Virus record (IMG/VR): IMGVR_UViG_3300025310_000222 | Span: 1-42,811 of that record | Length of the DNA: 42,811 nucleotides | Reading direction: 5' to 3' (one strand) | Origin: a virus | Part shown: piece after piece, positions 3,614 through 39,593 of the stretch | How positions within the stretch are numbered: position 1 is the stretch's first letter | Layout of the letters: every line of letters starts with the position of its first letter | Made by a program: the position numbers and the translations under genes | The notes under the pieces: model-generated | What the model saw: the letters and a program-made list of their open reading frames with translations, nothing else | Databases searched by the model: none | What the model was told of the DNA's origin: nothing

Positions 3614-3619
3614 GAGAAG

Positions 3620-4416: not shown

Positions 4417-4418
4417 GG

Positions 4419-5593: not shown

Positions 5594-5622
5594 CTTCGTG
5601 TTCCTTCCTTCAGTCGTTTAGT

Positions 5623-6379: not shown

Positions 6380-6382
6380 AGA

Positions 6383-10945: not shown

Positions 10946-10984
10946 CCCTGCCCTGCACCTACCGTGGTGCACGCTATGTCACGC

Positions 10985-13876: not shown

Positions 13877-13905
13877 AAAACGAGCGGCTGATACAGAGTC
13901 GCGGT

Positions 13906-16900
13906 ATGTTCCGGACATGCGTGTTGTTGGTCCTCGTCCTGGGCGCGACCGCCCAGGCTTCAGTCACTGTCACCGGTAACGTAAAGACGCTGGCCGGCCA
14001 GGCGCCGGGCACGGGCATCAAGGTCCAGCTGACCCTGCAGGGTTGCGATTCGAAGGACGCGACTGTAGAGGGTTCATACCTCGGCCTGGACCGCACGCCG
14101 TCGACGACCGCCGATCCGACGACCGGCGCCTTCACCTTTGCGACGCTGGCCGGCAACGACGAGATCAAGTGCAATGGCCAGCTGAACGTGACGCATTGGA
14201 CCGTGTCGATCATTAAGTCGGGCACCACGACGCCGAGTTGGTCGGCGAACTACATCATCAATGCGGCCGACGGTCCCGCGAACCTGAACACAAAAGCCAA
14301 GATGGCGACGGCGCCGCTACCCGCGGTCCTTGACTATGCGGTGCGGAACCAGGCGAACACCTTCACGCAGTCCAACGACTTCACCACGGCGACAATCACG
14401 CGGCCTTTCCGGTGGCTGGCGTTCGCGAGCTTTCCGGCGACGTGCACGGCGAACAAGGACATGTTGGTTCGCTCGGACGCACTGACGGCCGGGCAGGCGC
14501 TCTACATCTGCAACGCGGCCGGGAATGGCTGGAACCTGGTGGGCGACGGCGGCGGCGGGCTGGGGCCCGGCACGGCGGGCACACTGGCGAAGTTTACCGG
14601 AACGGGAAACACGATCGGGGATTCTACGTTCACCGAGGCAGGGTTAACTTCTACCCTTGCGGCTAAAGCCGCTGATGCCGATGTAGTGCACAAGACGGGC
14701 AATGAGACGATCGCCGGCACTAAGACATTCACCAGCCCTATTGCTGGCAACATCACGGGCAACGCTGCGACCGCGACGTGGGCCGCTACCGCGACCGGCG
14801 CCACGCAGCTTACCGGCGACCCGGCAGATTGCGCGGATCCAGTATTGGGCTATGCGTATGGTATCAACGAGTTCGGAGACCTGGCCTGCGTTTCATTTCC
14901 CTTCTCGTTCAAGGGGCAGCTGTTGGTCTCTGACCTCAGTGGCGACACGCTCATCCTCACTGCGCTGGCGCGCAATGTTACGACGACGAAGCTTTTTCTT
15001 AGCCAAGTAGGAGATGGATCCACGGCCAACCTGCCGTCGTGGGCGCAGCCCGCCTTCTCTGACATGGCCGGCGTGGTGACGGACCCGCAGGTCCCTAATA
15101 ACATCACGGTCGACCTCGCCGGCACGGCGACGGCGCTGGCGGCCAACCCGACCGATTGCAGCGCGGGCCAGTACGCCACGACGATCGACGCCGGCGGCAA
15201 CCTTGGGTGCGCGCAGGTGGCGTACGCGCAGGTGAGCGGCACGCCCAGCCTGGCGGCGATCGCGACGTCGGGATCGGCGAGCGACCTGACGGCCGGGACG
15301 GTGCCCGACGCGCGCTTCCCGGCGACGCTGCCGGCGGCGAGCGGCGCCAACCTGACCAACCTCAACGCTTCGAACCTTGCCAGCGGCACAGTGCCGGTGG
15401 CGCGGATCCAGGAGGTGCTGAGTGTCGCAGATCTGACGGACTTCGCCTCGAAGAGTGGGACGGGCACGGCGGCGATCGGCGCCACGATGACGTCGCTGGC
15501 CACGGACGACGTCCTGAAGTGGAGCGGAACGAACTGGGTGAATGCGACGGCGGCGCCCAAGGCAACGGCGCTGGCGGCGAACCCGAACGACTGCGCGGCG
15601 GGATCGGCGCCGCGGGGCGTGGACGCTTCCGGGGTGGCGGAGAACTGCGCTGACTTCATGGAAGAGCCGGGCGCCAGTGGGATCGTGGCCCGGACCGCGG
15701 CGAACACTTCATCGGCCCGCACCATCACCGGCACGGCGAATGAGATCACGGTGACGAACGGCGACGGCGTGAGCGGTAACCCGACGCTCTCGATCGCGGC
15801 CGCCTTTGACATCAGCGGGAAGACGTCGACGAAGCCGGCGAAGATGGGGACCGCGGCGCCGGGGACGTGCGGCTTGGGCGAAGTGTTCTTTGACACGGAT
15901 GCCCCAGCCGGCCAGAACCTGTACGGCTGCACCGCGACGAACACCTGGACGTTGCTGGGGGACGGCGGCGGCGGATCCGGCACGATCAATTCCGGCGTGA
16001 CGAATGTGATCCCGAAGTACACGGCGTCGACCACGCTGGACGACTCGCTGCTCACCGATGACGGCACCACGCTGGGCTACACGGGCAGCGGCGGCATCGC
16101 AGTGGGATCCTCGACTACGGTCGAGATGTCGGCGACGAACGGCGTGCTGCGCTTCCTGGGCGCGCATACGGGCAACGATGAAGACCTGAAGATCGACCTG
16201 GACGGCACGGCGAACACGGCGGTGGTGACTTCGACCACGGGCGTGACCAAGGTCGACTTCCAAAGCATCGACCTCCAGGTGCCTACGGAAGCCTACAGCG
16301 CTACCAACTGGAACGGCATAAACACCGTGCCGACGAAGGACGCGGTTCGCGACCAGTTCGAGGCCGAGCCAGCTGCCACGCGGACGCTGACGAACAAGAC
16401 GCTGGACGCGGAGGGCACGGGCAACGTCATCACCACGGTACAGAAGGTGTGGTTCCAGGCGGCGGGCGGAACGGTGGCGGCTCCGACGCTGCTGGCCGAA
16501 GCCACGACGAACGCGCCGACGGCGACGTGCTCGGCGGGCGCCACGGAGACGACGCTGATCCGGTGCGTGGCCGACTTCCCGGACTCAGACGGCGACAAGG
16601 ACCTGCAATGGACATTCCCGCTGCCGGAGGACTGGACCGGGAACATCGACCTGAAGTTTCGCTGGCGCTCGGCAGCGACTTCCGGCGACGCCGTGTGGCA
16701 AGCGACGCTGGTCTGCCGGGCGGACGCCGAGGTGGATGACGCGGCGTTCAACGCTGCGAACACGGTGACGGACACGGCCAAGGGCACCGCGAACCAGATC
16801 AACGAGGCTTCGATCACGGCCATGACCACGACCGGCTGCGCGGCCGGCGAGCTGGCGCACCTCAAAGTGTTCCGCAACCGGACCCATGCCTCCGACACGA

Positions 16901-16956
16901 TCGCGGGAACGATCTCGCTGATGGGCGTGCAGATGACGATGCGGAGGGCGCAATGA
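13906..16956 (+). CDS. Large secreted/fibre-like repeat protein
   Basis: 1016 residues beginning with a Sec signal peptide (MFRTCVLLVLVLGATAQA) and an Ig-like or Cna-B-like domain. The rest is fibre-like: NETIAGTKTFTSPI is the motif of phage tail-fibre stalks (T-x-x-G-x-K-T-F). Three units with NPxDC...G...C occur near residues 303, 414 and 559. A longer unit with WNLVGDGGGG / WTLLGDGGGG followed by a GT-x-x-K-Y/F-T strand occurs near 205 and 675. Ser/Thr/Ala/Gly content is high. It is probably a receptor-binding or surface adhesin protein; the signal peptide is unusual for a tail fibre. First of three overlapping genes. Confidence 0.7.
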   Translation: MFRTCVLLVLVLGATAQASVTVTGNVKTLAGQAPGTGIKVQLTLQGCDSKDATVEGSYLGLDRTPSTTADPTTGAFTFATLAGNDEIKCNGQLNVTHWTVSIIKSGTTTPSWSANYIINAADGPANLNTKAKMATAPLPAVLDYAVRNQANTFTQSNDFTTATITRPFRWLAFASFPATCTANKDMLVRSDALTAGQALYICNAAGNGWNLVGDGGGGLGPGTAGTLAKFTGTGNTIGDSTFTEAGLTSTLAAKAADADVVHKTGNETIAGTKTFTSPIAGNITGNAATATWAATATGATQLTGDPADCADPVLGYAYGINEFGDLACVSFPFSFKGQLLVSDLSGDTLILTALARNVTTTKLFLSQVGDGSTANLPSWAQPAFSDMAGVVTDPQVPNNITVDLAGTATALAANPTDCSAGQYATTIDAGGNLGCAQVAYAQVSGTPSLAAIATSGSASDLTAGTVPDARFPATLPAASGANLTNLNASNLASGTVPVARIQEVLSVADLTDFASKSGTGTAAIGATMTSLATDDVLKWSGTNWVNATAAPKATALAANPNDCAAGSAPRGVDASGVAENCADFMEEPGASGIVARTAANTSSARTITGTANEITVTNGDGVSGNPTLSIAAAFDISGKTSTKPAKMGTAAPGTCGLGEVFFDTDAPAGQNLYGCTATNTWTLLGDGGGGSGTINSGVTNVIPKYTASTTLDDSLLTDDGTTLGYTGSGGIAVGSSTTVEMSATNGVLRFLGAHTGNDEDLKIDLDGTANTAVVTSTTGVTKVDFQSIDLQVPTEAYSATNWNGINTVPTKDAVRDQFEAEPAATRTLTNKTLDAEGTGNVITTVQKVWFQAAGGTVAAPTLLAEATTNAPTATCSAGATETTLIRCVADFPDSDGDKDLQWTFPLPEDWTGNIDLKFRWRSAATSGDAVWQATLVCRADAEVDDAAFNAANTVTDTAKGTANQINEASITAMTTTGCAAGELAHLKVFRNRTHASDTIAGTISLMGVQMTMRRAQ

Positions 16957-17651
16957 GGCTGATCCTGGTCCTGCTGCTGCTGGCCTGCGCGGCGCCGGCG
17001 CAAGTGGCGCGCGCGGGAACGAACTGCACGGGAACCACGAGCTGCACGCCGACGAACGCCATCGGCGACCTGCAGCTGGCGTTTGCGTTCCGCGACGGCA
17101 GCCAGACAGCCCCGACGGTACCGGCCGGCTGGACGAGCGCCGGGACGGCCAGCATCAACGGGACGTCATCGGCTGACAGCGCGGCTGTGCTGGCGTGCAA
17201 GATCTCGACCTCAGCGAACGAAGCGAGCGGCACGTTCACGAACGCGAACTCGCTGGTCATCATGATCTATTCGGGCGTGGGCGGGACGACGGCCAACTGC
17301 AATACGGTGTCGATCGGCACGCCGAGCTTCTTTACCTCCACCGTCAACACGACGACCACCACCGAGACGTTCAACTCGCTGACGAACGGGTCGGCGACTT
17401 CGTGGGTGATCGGTTTTGGCGGGTGTTCGGCTTGCACCGCGGGCATCGGAACGGCGCCGACCGGGATGTCTAACCGCTCTGCGCACTCGAGCGGCACTCC
17501 GCCTTCGACCGGCGGGCACGACACGAACGGCGCGGTGGCGTCATTCACCACGGCCAACGTGACGCTGACGACCGCGGGCCGCATCATCACGGCAGTGGTG
17601 GAGGTGAAGGCGGCGGCGCTGGGGCGGCCGCGGAGGGTCTATGTTTATTAG
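16953..17651 (+). CDS. Secreted beta-rich protein of the fibre cassette
   Basis: 232 residues, ATG overlapping the stop of the large fibre gene (ATGA). Clear signal peptide (MRLILVLLLLACAAPAQVARA), then a beta-rich Thr/Ser/Gly protein with several Cys (CTGTTSCTP near the N-terminus; CSACTAG later), including strands such as LVIMIYSGVGGTT and SWVIGFGGC. The pattern resembles phage-encoded proteins with a concanavalin-like or virion-associated beta sandwich, but no family is certain. Translationally coupled to both neighbours. Confidence 0.6.
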   Translation: MRLILVLLLLACAAPAQVARAGTNCTGTTSCTPTNAIGDLQLAFAFRDGSQTAPTVPAGWTSAGTASINGTSSADSAAVLACKISTSANEASGTFTNANSLVIMIYSGVGGTTANCNTVSIGTPSFFTSTVNTTTTTETFNSLTNGSATSWVIGFGGCSACTAGIGTAPTGMSNRSAHSSGTPPSTGGHDTNGAVASFTTANVTLTTAGRIITAVVEVKAAALGRPRRVYVY

Positions 17652-19086
17652 GCTGCTAGTGGTCGTGCTGTTACTGAGCGCAGCAGCAGCATGCGCTGAT
17701 ACCGATGCCGCGCTGAGGCTGCCGACGCCGGATGACTACGCCGCGGGAGAGTTAGAGCATCTGGCGATGATGTTAGCCGCTGACGGCATCACCCTGAAAA
17801 GCGGGGTGAAGGTTAGCGGCGTCAAGGTGACCGTGGGCGCCGACCCGCAGTGCGGAGCTGGCACCAACGGCGCCGCGCTGGACAACCAGAACAAGTGCGG
17901 CGTGACCGGAAGCAGCGGGTCGTTGTCGCTCTCGTCGCCGACCAACGTCTCCAGCTGTCAGACGCTGAGCACCGCTGACGGCGAATACCGGCTCACGCAG
18001 AACATCGGCTCGGATGCGACGGCGGTCTGCCTGGAGCTGAACGGTCCACGGATGAAGGTGGACCTGAACGGATACGGCGTGACGGGCCGGGTGCGTGCGA
18101 CCACCGCGGGCGATGCCAGGGGCTTGGAACTGGCGAACGGCTCGATCACCTGCGACCGGACCACGGCGCAGGCGCCGGCGTGCCTGGAGTACACGACGGA
18201 ATCCTTTGGGTCATTCACGAACGTCACCAAGTTCCACCACCTGACGGTGACGAACACGGCGAACTGCGGCGCGAGCGGGGCTTCCAGGGCGCTGCATATC
18301 GACTACTCACCTTCAGGCTGGACGGGGACGTACCTGTTCGAGATCTACAACAACTCGATCGAGACGCAGACGTGCACCGATTCGGTGCGGACCGTGGCAT
18401 TCAATGTGACCACGAACAAGCCGGTGAAGTTCGAGTACAACTACGTGACCTTCAAGACCGACTCGGGCGCGGCACAGGGCCTGCAGCTTTCCGGGGCGGC
18501 AGGTTGCCTAGTTCGCAATAACCGATTCCGCAGCTTGGGCGCCAACACGACTGCCAACCTAGGGCGTCCTTGGATGATTGATTCTGGTTCGAATAATTGC
18601 ATCGTCGAATACAACCTGGTGGAGACATACAACCTGTTTTCCGCGGTGCGCGACAACACGGGGACCATCGTCCGCCATAACCGCTTCCTGAAAGTGCAGA
18701 ACTCCGGCAACCGCGGGGCGGTGTGGATGGCTGACCCGGACACCGGGACCTACGACCTGGGCGGCGCGCGAGTCATCAACAACTATTTCGACGTCGAGGA
18801 CGGCACGGCGGTGGCGTCGCGCTGCGCGGCCGGGTCGGGGGCGAGCAACGGCTTCATCGTGAAGGACAACACGATGGCCTGCTCGGGACTGGGATGCAGC
18901 AGCGGCTTGTTGGGCAGGGCGCGCGATGCGACGGGCTGCTCGAACACCAACATCATGCAGCTCTGCGCGAACACCACGGCGGTCAACAGCCAGGCGGACG
19001 CGGGGGCGGAGATCAAGCTGCCGTCGTCCGGGACGGGCACTTGCTCAGGCGCGGGCACCTGCACCACGCAGGCGTGTCCGATCTAA
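17641..19086 (+). CDS. Secreted parallel beta-helix protein (possible depolymerase or spike)
   Basis: 481 residues with GGAGGG before the ATG at 17641 and an 11-base overlap with the previous gene. Signal peptide-like start (MFIRLLVVVLLLSAAAACA). From about residue 110 to 400 the sequence has turns typical of right-handed beta-helices: MKVDLNGYGVTGRV, FEIYNNSIE, CLVRNNRF, CIVEYNLVE, TIVRHNRFL, RVINNYF and FIVKDNTM. Asn at regular intervals matches the Asn ladder of pectate-lyase-like folds. Phage spikes and polysaccharide depolymerases use this fold. Catalytic residues cannot be named. Confidence 0.65.
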   Translation: MFIRLLVVVLLLSAAAACADTDAALRLPTPDDYAAGELEHLAMMLAADGITLKSGVKVSGVKVTVGADPQCGAGTNGAALDNQNKCGVTGSSGSLSLSSPTNVSSCQTLSTADGEYRLTQNIGSDATAVCLELNGPRMKVDLNGYGVTGRVRATTAGDARGLELANGSITCDRTTAQAPACLEYTTESFGSFTNVTKFHHLTVTNTANCGASGASRALHIDYSPSGWTGTYLFEIYNNSIETQTCTDSVRTVAFNVTTNKPVKFEYNYVTFKTDSGAAQGLQLSGAAGCLVRNNRFRSLGANTTANLGRPWMIDSGSNNCIVEYNLVETYNLFSAVRDNTGTIVRHNRFLKVQNSGNRGAVWMADPDTGTYDLGGARVINNYFDVEDGTAVASRCAAGSGASNGFIVKDNTMACSGLGCSSGLLGRARDATGCSNTNIMQLCANTTAVNSQADAGAEIKLPSSGTGTCSGAGTCTTQACPI

Positions 19087-19092
19087 AAGAGG

Positions 19093-19125
19093 AACAAAAT
19101 AGAACAAATAGAACAAACTGAACAC
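19093..19125 (+). repeat. AT-rich direct repeat, right copy
   Basis: Starts AACAAAATAGAACA, identical to 13841-13854, and goes on with further TAGAACA-type units (three GAACA in a row). It lies six bases after the stop of the beta-helix gene and closes the 5.2-kb cassette. A small CCTTAA/TTAAGG inverted repeat follows it, from about 19129 to 19150. Confidence 0.7.
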
Positions 19126-19159
19126 ACACCTTAATCCTGCGGCGTTAAGGTCTCCCGCA

Positions 19160-19657
19160 GTGACCCGCAAAGAACAGCTGGATTTCATCGGCCGCGTGGC
19201 GCCGGCGGCGCAGCAATCGCAGAGGAAGCACGGCATCCCCGCCAGCGTAACGATCGCGCAGTGCATTCTTGAGTCCGGCTGGGGCAAGCGGGCGATCGGC
19301 AACAACTACTTCGGGATCAAGAAGGGCGTGGCCAACGTGCCCTACGTCGAGTTCACCACCCATGAGTACCGCAACGGCGTGAAGCAGCAGGAGAGCGCTA
19401 GGTTCCGCGCCTTCCCGTCGCTTGAGGCCTCGGTCCGCGCGCACGGCGACCTGATCGCCCTGGGCAAGGACCGGAGCGGGAAGCTGATCTACGCGGCCGC
19501 CATGGCGGCGGTCGATGATCCGCTGGTCTTTGCGATGCGACTCAAGGAGTGCGGCTACGCTACCGACCCGAACTACGTGAACACGATCGCGCGCCTGATC
19601 AAGCAATGGAACCTGACGCAATACGACGAGAGGCGCCCGAAAGGAGCGACCGCATGA
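19160..19657 (+). CDS. Endolysin, glucosaminidase (FlgJ-like) domain
   Basis: 165 residues from the GTG at 19160. The motif SVTIAQCILESGWGKRAIGN, then NYFGIKKG, is the signature of the mannosyl-glycoprotein endo-beta-N-acetylglucosaminidase-like family, with Glu in ESGWG the expected catalytic acid. The rest matches a single catalytic domain (SARFRAFPSLEASVRAHGDL; DPNYVNTIARLIKQW). It cleaves peptidoglycan at the end of infection. No signal peptide, so it needs a holin; membrane proteins encoded at 20759-21795 are candidates. The next ATG overlaps by 4 bases. Confidence 0.88.
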   Translation: MTRKEQLDFIGRVAPAAQQSQRKHGIPASVTIAQCILESGWGKRAIGNNYFGIKKGVANVPYVEFTTHEYRNGVKQQESARFRAFPSLEASVRAHGDLIALGKDRSGKLIYAAAMAAVDDPLVFAMRLKECGYATDPNYVNTIARLIKQWNLTQYDERRPKGATA

Positions 19658-20415
19658 ATACCCAGATCCGCACCACCGAGAGACAGCTGCGCGAGCGACG
19701 ATCGTGGATCCTTGCCGGACTGATCTCGCTCGCCCTGCTGAGCTGCCTCGCATTCCCGCTGGCGTTCATCACCGGCTGCGATGACGACGACTACCGCAAG
19801 GCAGTCCGCGCGGCGGCCGGCATCGCGACGAGCCTCGCCGAGACGCAGGCGGTGAACGAGCGACTCTACGCCGCGGCGCTCATCGACCGCGAGGAAGCGA
19901 TCGCGATCGCGCGCATGGTGAAGGAGGCGACCTTGGCCAACGACCACTTTGTCGCCAGCCTGCGCCGCTACGACCGGCTCAACAAGAATTCGCGGGCGGA
20001 CCTGGTGCGCTTGGTCGCCGACGTGGCGCGCAGTGTGCGCCAGCTGAACGAGCAGGGCGTGCTGCGCATCAAGAATGCGGACGCGCGCCTGCGCTTCCGC
20101 GCCGCGGTCGACGGCGCCGTGACGGCGCTCGACATCCTCGCCGCCGTGATCGGCGCGCATGAGGCGCCGCGCGCGACGCCCACGAACAATCTTCTGCAAA
20201 CAAGATCCCTCAGAGAAGGGGTAGCAACTCCGACAGGTCATGCTCGCCGCTCAGGGACCGTGCAACTGAGAGCGGCCGACACTTCAGCAATCCGTCGCTG
20301 GGCGAAGACTGAAGACGAAACGGGAGCGATTGCCGGCGGAATGCCCCGACACGACGACGCAAGACCCCGGCGGCTCCCAGTGGCGGCCGGGGAATTTCTG
20401 CGAGGTGCCGCATGA
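19654..20415 (+). CDS. Predicted lipoprotein in lysis cassette
   Basis: 253 residues, ATG at 19654 with AAAGGAG upstream. A positively charged N-terminus (RQLRERRSW), a hydrophobic stretch and the lipobox-like ITGC near residue 44 suggest a lipid-anchored or single-span protein. The following 130 residues form a long helix bundle (RAAAGIATSLAETQAVNERL ...). Lying behind the endolysin, it could act as a spanin or anchor; this is inferred. After about residue 178 codon composition drops in quality (AT-rich third positions) although the frame stays open to 20415, so the last 75 residues may be degraded or acquired. Confidence 0.6.
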   Translation: MNTQIRTTERQLRERRSWILAGLISLALLSCLAFPLAFITGCDDDDYRKAVRAAAGIATSLAETQAVNERLYAAALIDREEAIAIARMVKEATLANDHFVASLRRYDRLNKNSRADLVRLVADVARSVRQLNEQGVLRIKNADARLRFRAAVDGAVTALDILAAVIGAHEAPRATPTNNLLQTRSLREGVATPTGHARRSGTVQLRAADTSAIRRWAKTEDETGAIAGGMPRHDDARPRRLPVAAGEFLRGAA

Positions 20416-20600
20416 ACCAGGAACAAATACTCGAGCTGATCTTACTGGCGGGCAGCCTCACGAAGCTGATCGTCGAGCTCAAGCGCCAGGGCCAGATGGA
20501 GAGCGAGGCGCTGCTGCGCCTGGCGGAAGAGAAAGGCCCGGCGACCCGCGAGCGAGTCGACGCCTTTCTGCGCCAGCTCGAGGCGCCGGTCGAAGGATAG
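20412..20600 (+). CDS. 62-residue protein of lysis region
   Basis: Starts with an ATGA overlap on the lipoprotein gene. A hydrophobic first helix (QILELILLAGSLTKLIVELK) is followed by a charged helix (MESEALLRLAEEKGPATRER). It could be a small membrane-associated holin partner or antiholin, but one half-hydrophobic helix is not enough to say. Confidence 0.6.
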   Translation: MNQEQILELILLAGSLTKLIVELKRQGQMESEALLRLAEEKGPATRERVDAFLRQLEAPVEG

Positions 20601-20758
20601 GTTTTCGCGCGACGTTCCCCCAGGACGGTTGGGGTGGGGCTCTGGGGGGGGGTAGGCGCCCGAACGGCTCCTGGCCCCGGTGTGACGGTCACAAAGTGGC
20701 TTTTAGGCGGCGCAGCGGTACGGATTTTCATAGTCGGGCCCGAGGAGGGGCTCCGGGG
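20601..20758. other. Short intergenic stretch with G9 run
   Basis: No convincing gene in any frame. It holds G-rich tracts, including nine G at 20644-20652, and the sequence GTGACGGTCAC. Unlike the three homopolymers noted elsewhere, no good coding frame is found on either side of this run. It may carry a promoter or leader for the membrane genes that follow; none is clear. Confidence 0.35.
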
Positions 20759-21328
20759 ATGTGGAAAAGCCTGGAAGGCAAGAAGACTTACATCGGTGCC
20801 GCACTGCTTTCCTTGGCAGTCGTGGCGGCCTGGTTCGGCGTCGTCTCTCCGGGTCAGGCCGCCACGGGCGCGGCGCTCGGGGTCGCGCTGATCGGTATCG
20901 GCCTGGGGCACAAAGCCGACCGGTACGGCAAGGCGGCGGTCGAAGCAGCCTTGCTCGCGAAGGACCTGATCGACCAGCGCAGGACTTCGGGCCGCGTGGA
21001 CCTGCTGAAGGGCGGCGACGAATTCGCCCGGATCCTGAAGTCGCTGCAGCACGAAGGCGTGAACGCGATCATCGAGCGCGCGGATCGCGAGAGCAAACTC
21101 GCGATCGCACTCGCCGAGGAGCTCGCGAAGCATGACGCCGGCGTCTTCCACTCCAGCCTGACCTGGAACGGCCAGGAGTGGGTCAAGGGATCTGCGCCGG
21201 CAGCCCGCGAGCTCAAATACGAGCCCGTGCCCGATGAAGCTGCCCAAAGTCCGCGCGTGCGTGCGGCGCAGGGCGGCGCGGTCACCCAGGCCGACGGCAC
21301 CGGCGCGGTGGAGGAACACGAACAGTGA
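20759..21328 (+). CDS. Two-span membrane protein, holin candidate
   Basis: 189 residues from the ATG at 20759. Two hydrophobic segments near the N-terminus (TYIGAALLSLAVVAAWFGVV and ATGAALGVALIGIGLG) precede a long hydrophilic cytoplasmic part with helices and a Trp-containing C-terminal segment (SSLTWNGQEWVKG). A membrane hairpin encoded near the endolysin makes it a holin or lysis-associated candidate, though the long soluble part is unusual for a holin. It overlaps the next gene by GTGA. Confidence 0.6.
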   Translation: MWKSLEGKKTYIGAALLSLAVVAAWFGVVSPGQAATGAALGVALIGIGLGHKADRYGKAAVEAALLAKDLIDQRRTSGRVDLLKGGDEFARILKSLQHEGVNAIIERADRESKLAIALAEELAKHDAGVFHSSLTWNGQEWVKGSAPAARELKYEPVPDEAAQSPRVRAAQGGAVTQADGTGAVEEHEQ

Positions 21329-21795
21329 CTTCACGCGTCGCCGCTGCGGTCAACGGGTCTTCGGTCAAGAGCGCACTGCTTACGCTCGGGGGGATCGGCG
21401 GCGGCGTGAGCCTCTCTTACCTACTGGTGGAGCTGCTCAAGGCAGATCCGGAGCTCTCGAAGGCGGCGCTGCAGACGGTGATGCAGTGGGGGCCCCTGTT
21501 CGTCCTGTTCGCCGCGGTGCTCTACCTGAACGATCGCCGCTTCGGGCAGATGATCCACAACCAGAACGAGAGCCAGAAGGCCACGCTCGAAGTGCAGCGC
21601 GACCACGCGGCGGCACAGCAGAAGCTGGCCGAGTCGGTGCACCGCTTGGCGGAGCGCGATTATGAGCGGCAGCGCGAGACGGAGCTGGTGGTGGCGCACA
21701 TGGCGCGCGATGCCAAGCGCAACCGCGAGCTACTGGAAGAGATCCACAACCGACTGAACCAAAGCGAGAAGGCGCATGGACATCACGCAGGCTGA
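21325..21795 (+). CDS. Membrane protein with coiled-coil tail
   Basis: 156 residues from the GTG at 21325. Two N-terminal hydrophobic segments (LLTLGGIGGGVSLSYLLVEL and MQWGPLFVLFAAVLYL) are followed by a long charged coiled coil (about 77-150). This is the shape of the gp25/DUF2730-type proteins that sit before the terminase genes in Mu-like phages, and also of i-spanins (Rz). Either is possible; a two-span start fits a holin-like protein better than Rz. Confidence 0.6.
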   Translation: MTSRVAAAVNGSSVKSALLTLGGIGGGVSLSYLLVELLKADPELSKAALQTVMQWGPLFVLFAAVLYLNDRRFGQMIHNQNESQKATLEVQRDHAAAQQKLAESVHRLAERDYERQRETELVVAHMARDAKRNRELLEEIHNRLNQSEKAHGHHAG

Positions 21796-22093
21796 AAACA
21801 TCCGGCAGTTGCGCGCGACCATCCTCCGCACGGTGTACGACAACCACCGGCAGCAGCAATCGCGCCTGCGCCTGGTCCTGCTCGAGGGGATGCTTGAGCG
21901 GCTGTTCTTCGAGGTGGCGCGCAACGACTTGATCGCGGTGCTGCAGGACTTGAAGGAGCGCGGCTACCTGAACTTCCGCGAAGACAGGGATCGCTACACG
22001 CGCAAGGTCAATATTGGCGAGATCCAGATCACGCCCAAGGGGCGCGACCTGGTGGAGAAGACCGAGACCGACGAGGCTGTGGACTTTGACTGA
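21776..22093 (+). CDS. Winged-helix-like Mu gp26-type protein
   Basis: 105 residues, overlapping the previous gene by 20 bases. Helices (IRQLRATILRTVYDNHRQQQ; LVLLEGMLERLFFEVAR) and a wing-like end (NIGEIQITPKGRDLVEKTET) give a winged-helix appearance. It occupies the position of the small gene before gp27 in Mu-like phages. It may bind DNA during packaging. Stop and next start overlap. Confidence 0.6.
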   Translation: MDITQAENIRQLRATILRTVYDNHRQQQSRLRLVLLEGMLERLFFEVARNDLIAVLQDLKERGYLNFREDRDRYTRKVNIGEIQITPKGRDLVEKTETDEAVDFD

Positions 22094-22755: not shown

Positions 22756-24238
22756 CCTGCCGCCGGTCATCCAGCTGCGGCCGTATCAGCAGCGCTGGAT
22801 CGACGACGGCGCGCGCTTCAAGCTGGCGGTGAAGTCCGCCCGCATCGGCTTCTCCTTCGGGACCGGCATCGAATCGCTGCTCGACTGCATCGAGCGCCCG
22901 ACCACCTGGACGGTCCTCAGCGCCTCGAAGGCACAGTCGGTCGAGTTCGTCGACCTGGCGCAGAAGAATCTGAAAGCGATCGGCGGCGTAGCCGAGCTCT
23001 ATCCCGAGGAGCCTTTCGCCGACATCGAGGGGCTGACGTCGATCACGCAGACGCGGCTGCAATTTCCAAATGGATCGCGACTGATCGCGCTGCCGGCGAA
23101 TCCGCGCACCGCCCGCGGCTATCCCGGCAACGCCATCCTGGACGAGTTCGCGCACCACCAGGATTCGCACGCGATCTTCGCCGCGGTCGCGCGCCAGGTT
23201 GCGCTCGGCCACAAGCTGCGCGTGCTGTCGACGCCGAACGGTGAGACCGGCAAGTTCTTCGAGCTGGCCAAGGACCTGGGGCTCACTCTCGGCGTAGCGC
23301 CTTCGCCCAATCCCGTGTTGAAGCAGGCATGGTCCGGGCACTGGGTCGACATCCACCTGGCCATCCAGGAGGGCTGCCCGATCTCTGTCGAAGAGATGCG
23401 CGACCTCTTCAAGGATGAAGAGATGTTCGGCCAGGAATTCCTGTGCGTCTTCGTGCAGGCCCGCGGCGCCTGGCTGCCGCTGGAGCTCATTGCCAATGCC
23501 GAGCACGACGGCGCCACCATCGACTGGCCAGCCGGCTACGAGCCCGTGGGCCCGCTGTTTGCCGGCATCGACGTAGCGCGCGACCACGACGCCACGGTGA
23601 TGTGGATCGACGAGCTCGTCGGCGACGTCGCCTGGACGCGCGCCATCATCGTCCTGCACGGCACGCCGTTCCCTGAGCAGCACGACATCCTGGCTCCGCT
23701 CGTGCGCATGACGACGCGGACCTGCATCGATTCGACCGGCATGGGCGTCGCGCTCTACGACTACCTGAACAAGAGCTGCCCGGGGACGGCGATGGGCATC
23801 AACTTCGCCGGCACGAACGACCAAGGCGTGAAGCTGAAGACTGACCTGGCGGTCCGCATCAAGAAGAACTTCGAGAGCGCGAAGTCACGGATCCCGCGGC
23901 ATCCAGCGATCCGCCAGGAACTGATGGCGATCAAGCGCGAGGCGACCGCCACGGGTGTGCGCTTCGACGCGCCGCGCATCGAGATCGAGTCGCCGGTCGC
24001 CGGCGCCAAGAAGCAGAAGGTCTACGGCCACGCCGACCGCTTCTGGGCGAAGGCGCTTGCCGATCTTGCCGCCGCGAGCGCGCCCGCGGCCGTGGCTGCC
24101 GTCGAGCAGGGCGAAGGCGTGGTGCGCCCCGAGCGCCGCGGAATGATGAGCGAGATCACGCGCATCGGCCAGACGACCCACGACGTCCTGGTCGACCAGG
24201 GCGTGGTGCACGAGCGGAGGTCGGTATGGCCCCGCTGA
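22718..24238 (+). CDS. Large terminase subunit (Mu gp28-like)
   Basis: About 506 residues from GTG 22718; an in-frame ATG at 22655 is possible and neither has a clear ribosome site. The ATPase part has a divergent Walker A (VKSARIGFSFGTG, residues 38-50) and a clear Walker B NAILDEFAHH with Asp142-Glu143. The nuclease part has GIDVARDHDATVMW and CIDSTGMGVALYDYL, acidic residues of the RNase H-like fold. It packages DNA into proheads, for Mu-type phages by headful cutting beyond the phage end. Overlaps gp27 by 38 bases and the portal by 13. Confidence 0.88.
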   Translation: MSGPSGFHPSSGSLPPVIQLRPYQQRWIDDGARFKLAVKSARIGFSFGTGIESLLDCIERPTTWTVLSASKAQSVEFVDLAQKNLKAIGGVAELYPEEPFADIEGLTSITQTRLQFPNGSRLIALPANPRTARGYPGNAILDEFAHHQDSHAIFAAVARQVALGHKLRVLSTPNGETGKFFELAKDLGLTLGVAPSPNPVLKQAWSGHWVDIHLAIQEGCPISVEEMRDLFKDEEMFGQEFLCVFVQARGAWLPLELIANAEHDGATIDWPAGYEPVGPLFAGIDVARDHDATVMWIDELVGDVAWTRAIIVLHGTPFPEQHDILAPLVRMTTRTCIDSTGMGVALYDYLNKSCPGTAMGINFAGTNDQGVKLKTDLAVRIKKNFESAKSRIPRHPAIRQELMAIKREATATGVRFDAPRIEIESPVAGAKKQKVYGHADRFWAKALADLAAASAPAAVAAVEQGEGVVRPERRGMMSEITRIGQTTHDVLVDQGVVHERRSVWPR

Positions 24239-25779
24239 CATTGCTTGGGCTGAACAAGAGCACGGAGGTCTTTGCTGAGGCCCGCGAGAACGCCGGCATG
24301 GTCGTCCTGGACCTGAGCGAAGCCCGGCGCGCCGAACAGCAGCGCCAGGCAGACAGCGGATCGTCGAAGGTCAGCGAGGCGCTGGCGCCGCAGATGTTCA
24401 TGATCGGCGGCGACGCAGAAGACGCGCGCTACAAGCGCATCACCTCGAAGAAGACGCTGCGTGATCTGAACCCGCTCATGCAGGAGCGGATGCAGCAGAT
24501 CTGCTTCTTCATCGCGACCACGATCCCGTTCGCCAAGCGTTTCATCGAGCTGGTGACCGACTACGTCGTTGGCGCCGAGGGCTTCACGCTCGTAGCCAAG
24601 GACAAGAACGTCCAGGCGGTCCTGGACCGCTTCGTGGCGGACAGTGTCAATGACCTCGAGAAGACGCTGCCCGAATGGAGCGACGAGCTCGGCAAGTTCG
24701 GCGAGCTCTGCGTGCCGGTCGCCGTCAATCCCGTCGACGGCATGGTCCGGCTCGGCTACATCGACCCCTGCGAGATCGAGGCGATCGAGTATGGCCTGCT
24801 CACCGCGGGCGACGGCCGGGAGGAGATCGCGATCCCGGTCGCAGTACGCCTGAAGCAGAAGATCGGCGAGCAGCAGGGACGCCGGCTGCGCATCGTGATG
24901 CGCGACGAGGACCCGGACTCGGACACCTTCGGGCAGCTGTCCGGCGAGTGCTTCTACTTGGCGGTGAACAAGGCGAAGAGCGCGAGCCGCGGGATCTCCG
25001 ACCTGTTCTGCATGGCCGACACGCTCGACGTTCTGGACCAGCTGGTCTTCGACGGCGCCGACCGGGCGCGCTTCATGAACTCCTTCATCTGGCAGTACAT
25101 CATCAAGGGCGCCGACGACAAGAAGCTGGAGGAGTTCCGCAAGAAGACCTTCAAGTCGCCGCCGAGGCAGGGCGGCGTGCTCACCACCAACGACCAGGTA
25201 GAGCTGAAGGCGCTGAGCCCCGACCTGAAGGCGTACGAGTTCGGCGAGATCGTCAGCAATATCAAGACCTACGGCCTGGGCGGCATCGGCTTCCCCAACC
25301 ACTGGTTCGCCGATCCGGGCGACGTCAATCGCGCTACGGCCGGCGAGATGGGCGAGCCCACGCTGAAGAAGCTCGAGGGCAGGCAGAAGGCGCTGAAGCG
25401 CTTCTACCTAAGTATGGTGCACTTCGTTATCGACAAGGCGCAGACGGCCGGCGTGCTCAAGTCCAGCGTCGACCGCACGGTCGAGATCCAGACGCCCAAG
25501 CTCAACAAGAAGGACCTCTCGAAAGGCGCGACGACGGTGCAGACCACGGCCAACTCCTTGGCCCAGGCCGAGGACCGGGGCTGGATCCGCAGCGAGACCG
25601 CGGCGAAGGCTTTTCATCAGTCGCTGCGCGAGATCGACATCGAGATCGAGGACCCGGGCAAGGAGTTCACTACGGCGCAGCGCGAGAAGCAGGACCGCGA
25701 TGCCACGGAGATCGACCGCCTGAATCCGCAGGCGAACCTGGCCGACGCCCTCGACCAGGCAGGAGGAGCTGTGCAATGA
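24226..25779 (+). CDS. Phage portal protein
   Basis: 517 residues, start ATG 24226 with GGAGG close upstream. The sequence has the length and layout of a portal: NPLMQERMQQICFFIATTIPF near residue 85, a membrane-like/stem region, an aromatic segment SFIWQYIIKGADD near 290, and DVNRATAGEMGEP near 365, a conserved part of portals in Mu-like heads. Twelve copies form the channel at the head vertex. Position after terminase and before the gp7/gpF-like gene is standard. Confidence 0.85.
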   Translation: MAPLTLLGLNKSTEVFAEARENAGMVVLDLSEARRAEQQRQADSGSSKVSEALAPQMFMIGGDAEDARYKRITSKKTLRDLNPLMQERMQQICFFIATTIPFAKRFIELVTDYVVGAEGFTLVAKDKNVQAVLDRFVADSVNDLEKTLPEWSDELGKFGELCVPVAVNPVDGMVRLGYIDPCEIEAIEYGLLTAGDGREEIAIPVAVRLKQKIGEQQGRRLRIVMRDEDPDSDTFGQLSGECFYLAVNKAKSASRGISDLFCMADTLDVLDQLVFDGADRARFMNSFIWQYIIKGADDKKLEEFRKKTFKSPPRQGGVLTTNDQVELKALSPDLKAYEFGEIVSNIKTYGLGGIGFPNHWFADPGDVNRATAGEMGEPTLKKLEGRQKALKRFYLSMVHFVIDKAQTAGVLKSSVDRTVEIQTPKLNKKDLSKGATTVQTTANSLAQAEDRGWIRSETAAKAFHQSLREIDIEIEDPGKEFTTAQREKQDRDATEIDRLNPQANLADALDQAGGAVQ

Positions 25780-26045
25780 CGGCGACGGCCAAGAGTACGC
25801 AGCTGGCCAGCCAGGTCGTGGCCTGCAAGGCGAGCCGCGAGGACGTGAAGCTGCCGGGCGACTTCGCCTTCATGCGGCTCGACGACAAGCGCGTCGTGAT
25901 GCTGGCGTGCCCGTGCTGCGGCAAGCCCTGCCTGGCCGACGGCCACACGATCGTGCGCGACGAGCCGCTGACGCTGGTACCGGTGGTCGAATGCCCGAGC
26001 GGTTGCCGCTACCGGATCCATGAGGGGAGGGTGATCCCGCAGTGA
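25776..26045 (+). CDS. Small zinc-ribbon protein between portal and gpF-like gene
   Basis: 89 residues, ATG at 25776 with AGGAGGAG 8 bases upstream. Cys pairs CPCCGKPC near residue 48 and CPSGC near residue 77 make a convincing zinc ribbon. Its place inside the head operon, with 4-base overlaps on both sides, suggests a head assembly or packaging accessory. No known family recognised. Confidence 0.75.
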   Translation: MTATAKSTQLASQVVACKASREDVKLPGDFAFMRLDDKRVVMLACPCCGKPCLADGHTIVRDEPLTLVPVVECPSGCRYRIHEGRVIPQ

Positions 26046-26890
26046 ACAACCAGCAACAGTTCGCAGCGAAGGTCCAGAACCTGATCCAGCAGTCGCGCGC
26101 CCTCACGCCGGCGACGCGCAAGGCGGTGACCGAGCTCCTGGACGAAGCGCGCAAGCGGATCATCGGCGAGCTGGCGAGCGCTGACCCCAGCCGCTTCCAG
26201 GCAGCGCAGCTTACGCAGCTGAAACAGTCGATCGAGCGGGCGATGGACACGTTCCGCCGCGGCGCGACGCGCGAGGTCAATCTCCTGCAGCTGCAGTCGG
26301 CGCGCATCGGCAGCCGGCTCGCGACCGAGCCGCTGGGAGATCTGCCGCTGGGCCAGATCGCGACCGATCGCATCCGGGTCGCGCAGGGCTACACCGCGGA
26401 CCTGATCACGTCACTGTCGCGCAAGGCAGCGGCGGACGTGAACGGCGCCATCCAGCGCGCGTTCCTGGGCGGCCGTCAGATGAAAGACATCGTCGCCGAC
26501 ATCGCCGCGGCCGTCGGCGAGGAGCGCGTCAAAGCGATCGCGACCACTGAAGTGCTCAGGGTGCAATCGATCGCGACGCAAGCAAGTTTCGAAGAGATCC
26601 GGGAACGGCATCCGGATCTCCGCAAGCAGTGGCAGCACGTCAATGCGGCGATCGTGCCGCGCGTTTCGCATGTGATCGCCGACGGCCAGGTGCGCGAGGT
26701 CCAGGAGGCGTTCACCGTCGACGGCGAGCAGCTGATGTACCCGCGCGACCCGAACGGGTCGGCGGCGAACACGATCAGCTGCCACTGCCTGATGAAGCCT
26801 TATTTCGATCCCGAAGCGCTCGCGCCGAAGCCGGCGCACCGCCGGCTGCTCGACCGCCTCGGGATCGGGGTAGATGTTGAAGCCGCGTAG
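26042..26890 (+). CDS. Head morphogenesis protein (SPP1 gp7/Mu gpF-like)
   Basis: 282 residues from the GTG at 26042. A helical N-terminus is followed by the typical C-terminal core of the phage head morphogenesis domain: ATTEVLRVQSIATQASFEEI, KQWQHVNAAIVPRVSH and the ending NTISCHCLMKPYF, which matches the H...C-x-C signature of this family. These minor head proteins sit inside the capsid near the portal. Gene order portal then gp7/gpF is universal in Mu-like heads. Confidence 0.85.
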   Translation: MNNQQQFAAKVQNLIQQSRALTPATRKAVTELLDEARKRIIGELASADPSRFQAAQLTQLKQSIERAMDTFRRGATREVNLLQLQSARIGSRLATEPLGDLPLGQIATDRIRVAQGYTADLITSLSRKAAADVNGAIQRAFLGGRQMKDIVADIAAAVGEERVKAIATTEVLRVQSIATQASFEEIRERHPDLRKQWQHVNAAIVPRVSHVIADGQVREVQEAFTVDGEQLMYPRDPNGSAANTISCHCLMKPYFDPEALAPKPAHRRLLDRLGIGVDVEAA

Positions 26891-26911
26891 CGGCAGAAAA
26901 GGAGCAACACC

Positions 26912-27319
26912 ATGAGCGACGAGAAAGTGAAGATCGACGTACCTGAGGTGCCGTCGGTCCTGCCGCCCGCGGAGCAGAAGAAGTGGGTGGAAACCTACAA
27001 GGCCGCCTTCGAGGAGGCGCAGAACGACGACCCGGGTGACGTCGTGAAGCAGCGCCAGAGCGCACTGCGCGAAGCCAACCGGCTGCTGCGCGTCGAGAAG
27101 ATCACCTCGGCCGACCAGGCCAAGGCGCTGCCGAAATGGAAGCTGGTGCAGTGCGAAGAGAAGGACGGCGTCCTGAAGGTCGTGACCATCGACGGCAAGA
27201 AGTACTCGTTCGGTGTCGGCCGCGGAGCTAAGCAGCAGGCGCCGGCGGGCCAGGGCGGCGGGCAGAACGGCGCCGGCCAGCAGGGTGGGGGGGCAAGCAC
27301 TCCTCCTCCGGCGGCCTGA
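26912..27319 (+). CDS. ChaB-like domain protein of head operon, C-terminus in doubt at a G7 run
   Basis: 135 residues, AAAAGGAG before the ATG. Residues 14-36 (VLPPAEQKKWVETYKAAFEE) match the core of ChaB-like domains. A Gly/Gln-rich tail follows. At the G7 run (27287-27293) the frame as written ends as ASTPPPAA with T-ended codons. One extra G (or -1 shift) gives GKHSSSGGLKKSAEV with nearly all third positions G/C and a stop at 27337-27339. The downstream end is therefore uncertain. ChaB-like proteins occur near capsid genes in several phages; the role is unknown. Confidence 0.65.
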   Translation: MSDEKVKIDVPEVPSVLPPAEQKKWVETYKAAFEEAQNDDPGDVVKQRQSALREANRLLRVEKITSADQAKALPKWKLVQCEEKDGVLKVVTIDGKKYSFGVGRGAKQQAPAGQGGGQNGAGQQGGGASTPPPAA

Positions 27320-27389
27320 AGAAGTCGGCGGAAGTCTAAGCGACCGCCGAACATTCGCAGGAAGGAGGTCGCGGAGAATCGCCAGAGCC

Positions 27390-27422
27390 GCGGGCGACGG
27401 AACGGCAAACACCGTCGCCCGC
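27390..27422 (+). promoter_or_regulatory. Hairpin just upstream of protease-capsid gene
   Basis: An 11-bp perfect stem (GCGGGCGACGG / CCGTCGCCCGC) with an 11-base loop ends 14 bases before the ATG at 27437; AAGGA (27427-27431) lies between. No T tract follows, so it is more likely an mRNA-stabilising 5' hairpin or processing signal than a terminator. An orphan AAGGAGGT is at 27362-27369. Confidence 0.5.
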
Positions 27423-27436
27423 GTTACAAGGACTTT

Positions 27437-29929
27437 ATGAAAAAGACCAGCAAGATGATCGCGATCCTGGACGTTGCCGGCGCCGCCGGCGAAGTGCTGT
27501 GCCTGGTGCGCGAAGAGCTGTCGCTCGACGACCGCCAGCGTCAGATCCAGGATGCATTGAAGAACGCCTTCGGCGTCGACGCGCAGGGCTGGGCGAACTA
27601 TTACCAGGTCGAGACCTACGACGACTACGTGATCGCGCGCGGGCCGGAAGCCAGGCTCTATCGCATCGAGTACGCGATGACGGAAGACGGCGCCGTCACC
27701 TTCGGCAAGAAGCAGGAGGTCGAAGAGGTCTACGTCCCGGTCCAGGAGTCGGCGCGCTTCGTCGAAGAGGCAGCCGCCGGCGACGGCTGGAGCATGCCGG
27801 TGCAGATCATCGAAGCGGGTGCCGCATTCGGCAGCCTGAACGAGGAAGCGATCTCGCATTACTACACCCCGAAGGTGGTGGGCGAGTTCGCCGCGGCCGC
27901 CGACGGCGCGCGCTTCGGCCGGCGCCATCCGGGGCCGCTGGAGAATCCGCAGGATCCGGGCCGCATCGCCGGCTACTTCACCGAAGGCAAAGTCGTCGGC
28001 AATGCCGCGCGCGCGACGCTGCACATCCTGAAGACCGAGGTCGAGATCAAGGAGCGCCTGGCCGCGGCGCGCGAAGCCGGCCGTCCTGACCTGTTCAACC
28101 TTTCGGTGCTGGCGCTGGTCGCCTTCAAGCCCGGCGTGATCGAAGGCAAGCAGGTCTTGGTCTCCGAGAAGCTGGTCCGCCTGGTCAGCATCGACCTGGT
28201 CGCCGAGGCCGGCGCCGGCGGGAAGTTCCTTTCGCCGATGCGCGTCGCTGCCGGGGCGGACCTGGCGCACGAGATCTCGCGGCTGCAGTCGGCCGCGATC
28301 AAGAGTTCTTCCGGTGACCCCGGAGAGAAAAACGGTACGGCGCACGCCGGCCGAAAAGAAGGAGCACAAATGAAAAACCGCATCAAGAAGGTGCTCGAGG
28401 CGCTGCGGAAGCATGACGCCGGCCGCGCAACCGAGCTGGACACGAAGTTCAACACCCTGCCCGAGGACAAGCACTCCGAGTTCCTCGTCGAGGTCACGGA
28501 GGCGTATGCCACCGCGATCGAAGCCGCCGAGACGGCCGCTGCCGGCACGCCGCCCGCCGCGCCCGCGCAAGCGGCCCAGCCCGCCACCGCCACGGCCGTG
28601 GCCGAGGCGCAGAACCTGCTGACGGAAGCCAAGAAGATCCAGTCGGCGAACCTCATCGACCGCAAGTTGGCCGACTCGAAGCTGCAGGCGCCGTGGCAGA
28701 AGCTGGTGCGCGAGCACCTGGCCGACCGCGTCGTGACCGAGGCCGAAGTCGACACCGAGATCACGCGTGTGCGCGAGGCCGCAGCCGCCTCCAACGGCGC
28801 CGGGCGCATCAACGCCGGCGCGCCGGTCATGGTGGGCCTCGACAGCGCCGACAAGGTGCAGCTCGCGGTCGAGGGCATGCTGGGCGTGAAGGAGTCCCTG
28901 AACAAGGGCGTGGTTCCTTTCCGCAGCATCCAGCAGGCCTACAAGTTCATCACCGGCGACACCGACCTGAGCTTCGGCCGCAACGGCCGCGGCGGCTTCA
29001 CGGCCGTGAGCGAAGCGATCGCGACGTCCGACTTTGCGAACCTGCTGTCGACGTCGATGACCAAGCGCGCGATCCAGGACTACAAGGAGCTCGGCATGGG
29101 CGGCCTGGACCGCCTGATCTCGCGGTCGAGCGTCGCCGACTACAAGACGCAGGATCGGGTGCGCGACGGCTACTTCGGCGACCTGGCGTCGGTCAACGAA
29201 GCGGCGGCCTACCAGGAGATCACCAAGCCGACCGACGAGAAGATCAGCTACGCCGTCGGGAAGTACGGCAACCTGCTGACGATCTCGGAAGAGACCATCC
29301 GCAACGATGATCTCAGCAAGATCGTGCGCTTCCCGCAGAAGGTGGCGCGTGCCGGCCGGCGGACGCTGAAGCAGTTCATCACGAACTTCTTCGTGAACAA
29401 CCCGAACTACGACGTGGACTCGGTCGCGGTGTTCCATGCCAACCACAGCAACCTCGGCTCCGACGCGCTGAACGTCGACGCGCTCATCGCGGCCGAGATC
29501 ACGCTGATGAAGCAGCAGGAGAAGGACTCGAACAAGCGCCTCGGCCTGCGGCTGAGCTGGCTGATGGTCCCGGTCGACCTGGCCGCGACGGCCTGGAAGA
29601 TCAACAACAGCGAGTTCTACCAGCCGGGCCCGGGCGTCAAGGAGCCCAACCCGTTCTACAAGCGCTTCGGCCAGAACGGCGAGGCGATCATCGTGAACGA
29701 GCTGCTGACCGACGTGAACGACTGGTACTGCGGCGCGGACCCGGCCGACATCCCGTTCCTCGAGATCGGGTTCCTGGACGGCATCGAAGAGCCGCAGATC
29801 TTCGTGGCCAATGACCCCAACGCCGGCGGACTGGCCTTCACCAACGACCAGGTGGTCTACAAGGTGAAGATGGTCTTCGGCGGAGATGTGATCGACTTCC
29901 GTCCGGTGCGGAAGCACGTCGTCGCCTAG
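27437..29929 (+). CDS. Prohead protease - major capsid protein fusion
   Basis: 830 residues. Residues 1-300 are a protease/scaffold of the Mu gpI or gp21 kind: PVQIIEAGAAFGSLN...YYTPKVV, then RFGRRHPGPLENP with His164, and FNLSVLALVAF with Ser223 as the likely His-Ser pair. Residues 312-475 are a charged, Ala-rich linker. The capsid part starts near residue 480 (KGVVPFRSIQQAYKFITGDT) and goes on through DFANLLSTSMTKRAIQDYKE and FVNNPNYDVDSVAVFHANHS, as in the Mu gpT-like major capsid family. Fusion is rarer than two genes. A strong ribosome site before Met312 could make the capsid part separately. The main capsid shell protein. Confidence 0.85.
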   Translation: MKKTSKMIAILDVAGAAGEVLCLVREELSLDDRQRQIQDALKNAFGVDAQGWANYYQVETYDDYVIARGPEARLYRIEYAMTEDGAVTFGKKQEVEEVYVPVQESARFVEEAAAGDGWSMPVQIIEAGAAFGSLNEEAISHYYTPKVVGEFAAAADGARFGRRHPGPLENPQDPGRIAGYFTEGKVVGNAARATLHILKTEVEIKERLAAAREAGRPDLFNLSVLALVAFKPGVIEGKQVLVSEKLVRLVSIDLVAEAGAGGKFLSPMRVAAGADLAHEISRLQSAAIKSSSGDPGEKNGTAHAGRKEGAQMKNRIKKVLEALRKHDAGRATELDTKFNTLPEDKHSEFLVEVTEAYATAIEAAETAAAGTPPAAPAQAAQPATATAVAEAQNLLTEAKKIQSANLIDRKLADSKLQAPWQKLVREHLADRVVTEAEVDTEITRVREAAAASNGAGRINAGAPVMVGLDSADKVQLAVEGMLGVKESLNKGVVPFRSIQQAYKFITGDTDLSFGRNGRGGFTAVSEAIATSDFANLLSTSMTKRAIQDYKELGMGGLDRLISRSSVADYKTQDRVRDGYFGDLASVNEAAAYQEITKPTDEKISYAVGKYGNLLTISEETIRNDDLSKIVRFPQKVARAGRRTLKQFITNFFVNNPNYDVDSVAVFHANHSNLGSDALNVDALIAAEITLMKQQEKDSNKRLGLRLSWLMVPVDLAATAWKINNSEFYQPGPGVKEPNPFYKRFGQNGEAIIVNELLTDVNDWYCGADPADIPFLEIGFLDGIEEPQIFVANDPNAGGLAFTNDQVVYKVKMVFGGDVIDFRPVRKHVVA
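28357..28372 (+). promoter_or_regulatory. Internal translation start for the capsid half
   Basis: AGAAGGAG (28357-28364) stands five bases before ATG 28370-28372, in frame with the fusion gene at Met312. Translation from here would give a 519-residue protein without the protease, in excess over the full-length fusion. The arrangement recalls nested scaffold genes such as lambda C/Nu3. Confidence 0.6.
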
Positions 29930-29955
29930 GGCGGAGGACCCTAGGAGACACAGAG

Positions 29956-29992
29956 GCGGGAGCTGCACTGTGCAGCAGCTCCCGCTCATTTC
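29956..29992 (+). terminator. Hairpin/terminator after capsid gene
   Basis: A perfect 11-bp stem (GCGGGAGCTGC at 29956-29966; GCAGCTCCCGC at 29975-29985) with loop ACTGTGCA is followed by TCATTTC, a weak T-rich tail. It lies 27 bases after the capsid stop. It may be a partial terminator or 3' stabiliser of the abundant capsid message. Confidence 0.65.
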
Positions 29993-30057
29993 AAAACGCG
30001 AGGAGGCGTATCGAGCGAAGCAGATTGGCGGCTGCAAACCAGCCCTGGAGAAGAGAC

Positions 30058-30513
30058 ATGAAATCTAGCATCCTGAACTTCCGGCCGTTGGTCGCCGTCG
30101 TGCTGATGGCGATGATGTGCTTTATGCCGCTCGCCGACGCGCAGAAGACCTACCGCGACGCGACCGGCGGCTTCCTGAACGAGACGACCTTCCTCGCGTC
30201 GGCCGCGCGCACCAGCTCCGGCGACTCGACCGCGGTGGTCGACCTGGGCGCGTATGCCAACGGGAACATTTTCATCGACGTGACGGCCGCGTCCGGCACC
30301 CCGTCGATGACCGTCGCGTTCCAGAGTTGCCCCGATACGACCGTCGCCAACTGCTTCGACCACACGACGAGCTCCGCCATCACCGGCACCGGCAAGACGC
30401 TGCTCAAGGTGAACAACTTCGGGCGCTACGTGCTGATCAAGTACACGATCTCGGGCGGCACCCCATCGCTGACATTCAGTGTGAAGGGTGCGTTCAAAGC
30501 AGTCGGTAACTAG
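30058..30513 (+). CDS. Small beta-rich protein with signal peptide, behind capsid
   Basis: 151 residues from the ATG at 30058 (GGAG then AAGAGAC upstream). Clear Sec-type start (MKSSILNFRPLVAVVLMAMM, then CFMPLADA), then a beta-rich domain (NIFIDVTAASGTPSMTVAFQ; FGRYVLIKYTISGGTPSLTF). The place right after the capsid is where head decoration proteins are usually encoded, but those do not carry signal peptides. It may be a decoration protein with a leader-like N-terminus or an exported protein. Function unassigned. Confidence 0.6.
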   Translation: MKSSILNFRPLVAVVLMAMMCFMPLADAQKTYRDATGGFLNETTFLASAARTSSGDSTAVVDLGAYANGNIFIDVTAASGTPSMTVAFQSCPDTTVANCFDHTTSSAITGTGKTLLKVNNFGRYVLIKYTISGGTPSLTFSVKGAFKAVGN

Positions 30514-39592: not shown

Positions 39593-39593
39593 G

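Follow-up and report, generated by a model that had tools for sequence, protein, structure and literature searches.

The textbook view of tailed phages places their whole assembly in the cytoplasm, and the locus described here raises the question of why proteins of fiber type, and one encoded behind the capsid gene, should begin with Sec signal peptides. The window, by which we mean the whole stretch of DNA analyzed, is a 42.8-kb (42,811-nt) IMG/VR virus record, IMGVR_UViG_3300025310_000222, of a soil phage. The phage is transposable, Mu-like, and probably temperate; a MuA-type transposase (DDE_2 score of 23.1 versus a cutoff of 23, with rve below its cutoff) and its AAA partner (AAA_22 well above cutoff) are present in an early region that is divergent from the late genes. 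The rightward gene order is fiber cassette, endolysin, terminase, portal, fused protease-capsid protein, and then the tail up to 42533. The features referred to below, named by their start positions where needed, are as follows.

1-10972, leftward, early region
454-966, leftward, GemA (weak match), early region
6860-7891, leftward, AAA partner of the transposase, early region
7892-9877, leftward, MuA-type transposase, early region
11426-11923, S24 repressor
11935-13002, plus strand, coiled-coil protein with a signal, beside the repressor
13841-13873, plus strand, left copy of a 33-nt direct repeat, inside a cut-short methyltransferase gene (region 13349-13906)
13906-16956, plus strand, tail fiber 1, 1,016 aa; signal at residues 1 to 18, BppL_N motif TIAGTKTF, 16 Cys in the mature part
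16953-17651, plus strand, fiber-cassette protein 2, 232 aa; signal, N-domain homologous to RHph_TM16 QIG66716, 6 Cys
17641-19086, plus strand, fiber-cassette protein 3, 481 aa; signal of type I or lipobox, 18 Cys
19093-19125, plus strand, right copy of the 33-nt direct repeat
19160-19657, plus strand, endolysin (glucosaminidase), directly behind the fiber cassette, no signal
27437-29929, plus strand, fused protease-major capsid protein, no signal; query used to find relatives
30058-30513, plus strand, decoration-like protein, 151 aa, behind the capsid gene; signal at residues 1 to 28, beta-sandwich, Cys91/Cys99
39540-42533, tail tip protein

The fiber cassette looks as if it were an exchanged module, judging from the flanking repeats, which are 82% identical and AT rich in a genome of 65% GC, and from the methyltransferase gene, which contains the left repeat and ends early, just upstream of the first fiber gene.

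Signal peptides and identities of the window proteins

A sequence-only reading of this DNA had claimed that five proteins (11935, 13906, 16953, 17641, and 30058) start with Sec signals ending in AxA-type sites, and this was confirmed with a weight matrix. The matrix was our own, trained on 33 Gram-negative signal peptides and checked by leave-one-out. All five N termini are of the Sec type, with scores of 6.1 to 16.2, positive n-regions, very strong hydrophobic cores (Kyte-Doolittle means of 3.1 to 3.7), and small residues at -3 and -1, which is the signal peptidase I pattern; for 17641 this is ambiguous with a lipobox. Cleavage, predicted or placed by eye, falls between MGRIAVAVLLLLCVAAQG and Q in 11935 (score, 8.8), between MFRTCVLLVLVLGATAQA and S in 13906 (16.2), between MRLILVLLLLACAAPA and Q or between QVARA and G in 16953 (11.8), between LLSAAAAC and A or between ACA and D in 17641 (12.3), and between MKSSILNFRPLVAVVLMAMMCFMPLADA and Q in 30058 (6.1). 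Alternatively, 17641 is possibly a lipoprotein, in which a lipobox (AAAC) would be cut before Cys18 and signal peptidase I would not act. None of the core head or tail genes of the window had a signal predicted by the matrix, and one further window gene scored above the cutoff, a membrane-protein-like gene at 20759 in the lysis region. No peptidoglycan-cleaving domain was found behind the signal in any of the five proteins.

In 11935 and 30058 the probable start is internal to a longer mechanical open reading frame and is preceded by a Shine-Dalgarno sequence (GGAGG and GGAG, respectively); GGAGG also precedes 16953 and 17641, and the site of 13906 is weak. Wrong start codons were rejected as the source of the signals because none of the five window genes has, within its first 45 codons, a later start with a clear ribosome site that would give a signal-less protein. 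Shuffled versions of the first 45 residues matched the observed score in 0.05 to 5% of cases. The signal of 30058 is modest when taken alone (shuffle value of about 0.05) but is kept in all of the relatives that have the gene.

The cassette proteins differ in how far they can be assigned. BppL_N in 13906 scored above the Pfam cutoff, and no match was found for the N-domain of this protein that would bear on a tail-adaptor role; an AlphaFold model of the related fiber 1 N-domain of G006, G004, and L034 had a pLDDT of 39 and was left out of the evidence. Protein 16953 matched phrog_36177 and is homologous to the signal-less QIG66716 of Rhizobium phage RHph_TM16. Protein 17641 appears beta-helix-like when its sequence is judged by eye, and profile searches gave no family or fiber motif match for it. 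The coiled-coil protein 11935 had been grouped with the others, and its signal is borne out; its membership in the fiber system is not, as it lies beside the repressor and has no virion-like features, and a distinct accessory role in the lysogen's periplasm is probable.

A decoration role is likely for 30058, judging from two matches to a capsid decoration protein of Carin1 (PDB 8cjz), each of them weak, and from gene position. The AlphaFold model is a beta-sandwich behind a signal helix (pLDDT of 73), and the Carin1 protein was picked up independently by a profile search (E = 0.015) and by Foldseek (E = 4.5e-3; 23% identity). The gene adjoins the capsid gene in the window, as do its homologs in G001, G003, and G008, and the Cys pair (Cys91/Cys99 in the window) is common to all four homologs. 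In contrast, the Carin1 protein is a chain of 129 to 130 residues with no counterpart of the signal segment, and its aligned segment has no Cys. There was also a weak fold match to PBSX XepA (PDB 6i56), a prophage protein called "exported." The published account of XepA is of a cytotoxic protein of the lytic cassette (PMC6834076) and not of a decoration protein, unlike the role proposed for 30058.

Conservation in relatives, gene specificity, and cysteine content

Relatives of the window phage were found through its capsid protein, at 49 to 57% identity. A tblastn search of INPHARED with the window proteins gave RHph_TM16 for 16953 as the only homolog, direct IMG/VR scans with 30058, 13906, and 17641 gave no matches, and two GTDB genome scans found no prophage relative. 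Homologs of 30058 lie behind the capsid gene in G001/G002, G003, and G008, each with its own signal peptide, and the start in G008 is preceded by AGGAGG; the signals are 21 to 42% identical, versus 48 to 61% for the mature parts. G004 and G006 have their fiber genes in the corresponding position, upstream of the genes for lysis and terminase, and every one of these fiber genes has a signal. Between these two genomes, identity in fiber 1 rises from 35% in the signal to 86% in the mature domain, with the switch at the AxA/QT junction. Drift of the signal beside a conserved mature part, switching at AxA, marks the signal as functional and cleaved. A homologous fiber 1 and a second fiber gene, both with signals, were also present in L034, whose capsid protein is of a different type as judged by eye. 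The proteins behind the capsid in G004, G005, and G006 are signal-less. These and the corresponding signal-less protein of L034 were considered as 30058 orthologs and rejected, since hhalign against 30058 gave no convincing homology, and they are therefore not counted as signal-less orthologs.

Across the window phage and its relatives, signals were found in 12/12 appendage genes versus 0/79 core head, tail, and packaging genes, with the appendage class defined post hoc. As a blind control, 80 IMG/VR loci were fetched by the fiber peptide TIAGTKTF; at any start, 0 of 79 survey fibers had a signal at the formal cutoff, and 2 (L077 and L109) had one by eye. Fiber signals are thus rare overall and consistent within these lineages.

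The mature parts of ten signal-bearing fibers contained 1.69 Cys per 100 residues, versus 0.33 in the 79 survey fibers (Fisher P = 4e-34; rank test P = 8e-7; both statistics ignore shared ancestry). Values were 0.63 in high-GC survey fibers and 0.60 in late nonsignal genes of the same phages. The Cys number was even in 14/16 signal-bearing proteins (P = 0.002, a statistic that likewise ignores shared ancestry). In signal-bearing L034 a small motif reads GVSCADNAGSSRTDCTI, and its Cys pair is shared by G004, G006, and ctUh1700; in signal-less MW202697 the motif reads GITATDNAGLTKTDVTL, without the pair, and it also lacks Cys in Melnitz, P-TIM68, Mic1, Sf-FS3, S-SSM7, and P-SSM2. Mature 16953 has 6 Cys, compared with 1 in the first 220 residues of its signal-less RHph_TM16 homolog. 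The enrichment and the mostly even numbers fit oxidative folding. These comparisons establish, at the level of sequence, that the signals on the fiber-cassette proteins and 30058 are genuine, confined to appendage-type genes, and accompanied by Cys enrichment, and export of these proteins is strongly supported.

Signal-bearing fibers in phages without detected relation to the window

In Mx8/Mx9 (p64 type), L077, and ctUh1700, signals stand directly before tail fiber N-domains. The cultured Myxococcus phages Mx8 (p64) and Mx9 (p14) have MRYLPSAAGLAVGVLLGVIISVSTPASA followed by TRNxVGTYTLPGGNPVV, and in Stenotrophomonas phage BUCT555 the p64-type domain starts at the second residue, with no signal, so that cleavage of Mx8 p64 would restore the N terminus seen in BUCT555. 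No start codon that would skip the signal was found in the first 35 codons of Mx8 p64. With a matrix score of only 2.5 for p64, the signal call rests on the hydrophobic core, the ASA site, and the BUCT555 comparison. Mx8 p66 and p67 also have signal-like N termini. In L077 a signal precedes a tail-protein N-domain; in the alignment with a solved tailspike, mature residue 8 of L077 corresponds to residue 9. Signals are also present in ctUh1700 (MW202637), a circular phage, where they occur on the gene behind the capsid gene, on a fiber-like gene (GSVKTWSAGEFITANDLNA), and on tail-end genes; some of its fiber-like frames lack one. These cases indicate that the trait recurs in phages without detected relation to the window.

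Two observations accompany these genomes. L077, which is unrelated to the window, has a core tail protein (1333-3627; phrog_376) at whose start the signal-like MRYLLILLLSCSSAFG replaces about 94 residues of the family, which would reflect either a gene split or genuine export. The ctUh1700 tail-end cassette (L166:33494-35475) includes two lipoprotein-like proteins, one of which is a phrog_5939 tail protein with 13 Cys.

Export and a proposed route of virion assembly

The sequence-only reading had offered several outcomes of export: coating of the lysogen, release with the virion, or an unusual assembly or maturation step. Export itself stands, as the signals are kept and Cys is enriched in mostly even numbers; coating of the lysogen is less favored. 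Virion release or unusual assembly is favored for the fibers and the decoration-like protein because the mature N terminus in the other phages is a tail fiber N-domain. We give about an even chance to the proposal that the outer appendages (13906, 16953, 17641, and 30058) are Sec exported, folded in the periplasm, and joined to virions at lysis. The phage would send these proteins through the host Sec machinery, signal peptidase would cut off their signals, and folding and disulfide formation would take place in the periplasm during the time in which the cytoplasm was producing heads and tails. Breakage of the envelope at lysis would then mix the periplasmic and cytoplasmic pools, and the appendages would bind otherwise finished particles as last-added parts, at or after lysis. 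Decoration proteins and some fibers or tailspikes, such as P22 tailspike, lambda gpD, and T4 Soc/Hoc, can bind finished particles in vitro. Joining at lysis is the best explanation of an exported set that consists of the outermost, last-added virion parts. Against it, a lipoprotein at 17641 may be hard to reconcile with release onto virions, an exported fiber might meet its receptor inside the cell, and the tail fiber N-domain cases come from other phages and not from the window; the signal-less fiber-like frames of ctUh1700 and signal-less proteins behind the capsid in G004 to G006 also count against it. The broader proposal, that several unrelated tailed-phage lineages use two-compartment assembly, in which a cytoplasmic core and periplasmic disulfide-bonded fibers and decoration proteins join only during lysis, we judge to be slightly short of an even bet.

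The main rival is an envelope function, in variants that include surface conversion, decoys, and matrix binding. On this view the proteins are exported but stay out of the virion, acting as fiber-like adhesins, enzymes, or exclusion factors that reside in the periplasm or at the cell surface, either in a lysogen or during infection. Real signals, a Mu-like and probably temperate phage, a possible lipoprotein at 17641, and another exported protein beside the repressor (11935) all suit this account, and the tail tip protein could bind a receptor without the cassette. We nevertheless consider it unlikely, though worth serious weight, as the cassette sits with late genes, before the endolysin, the exported set includes a capsid-decoration-like protein, and a tail fiber N-domain at the mature N terminus (Mx8, L077, and ctUh1700) would be useless on a cell surface.

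The very strong hydrophobic cores would also suit a scheme in which the N termini bring nascent fibers to the inner membrane and virions are finished on its cytoplasmic side without full translocation; AxA sites that sharply border the conserved domain, and a Cys enrichment that points to translocation, make this improbable. Passage through the outer membrane as well, so that the medium is the only place where fibers bind virions or cells (perhaps forming a coat shared by the particles released), is compatible with the signals and Cys content, yet no outer-membrane transport element was found in the window, and we regard it as very improbable. That the signals arose by chance or from wrong start codons is scarcely credible: the modest shuffle result for 30058 and the weak ribosome site of 13906 speak for it, against which the signals are conserved in relatives, AGGAGG precedes the G008 start, usable later starts are absent, and the trait is class specific and recurs in unrelated phages.

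A literature search of partial coverage found no report of signal peptides or Sec export for tailed-phage fibers or decoration proteins. The nearest precedents are filamentous phage coat proteins and exported endolysins. The filamentous coat proteins pIII and pVIII are virion proteins whose Sec signals are cleaved, but they enter the membrane and their assembly proceeds by extrusion; the phages described here, in contrast, have tails and lyse the cell, and signals are confined to their outer appendages. Among endolysins, fOg44 Lys44, P1 Lyz, and phage 21 R have Sec signal peptides or SAR domains (PMC6116005). As here, the host Sec system is used by a tailed phage to move a late protein out of the cytoplasm ahead of lysis; the exported proteins in those phages are lysis enzymes, whereas here they resemble fibers and decoration proteins, and the endolysin of the window lacks a signal. 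Canonical tail fibers of BUCT555 (QQM14856), RHph_TM16 (QIG66716), and MW202697 (UOF80628) have domains or motifs in common with the signal-bearing fibers, but they start without a signal and have no Cys pairs in the compared stretches. If true, Sec-exported fibers and decoration proteins would alter the picture of cytoplasm-only assembly and would account for the production of receptor-binding proteins rich in disulfides, and fiber annotation would have to take signal peptides into account. Since the trait occurs in cultured Mx8 and Mx9, it is open to direct test.

The lysis regions of the window and its relatives contain further proteins with export-type N termini. Gene 19654-20415 of the window encodes a hydrophobic N terminus ending in FITGCDDDD, a possible lipoprotein or spanin-like protein. 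A signal-bearing 173-aa protein with no family assigned is encoded in the lysis region of one relative (L001:2211-2732), and a small conserved lipoprotein with the pattern CxSRVxxKKxGYPxPIPDC, spanin-like by position, is found in those of two others (G005:11678-11896 and G006:17025-17240).
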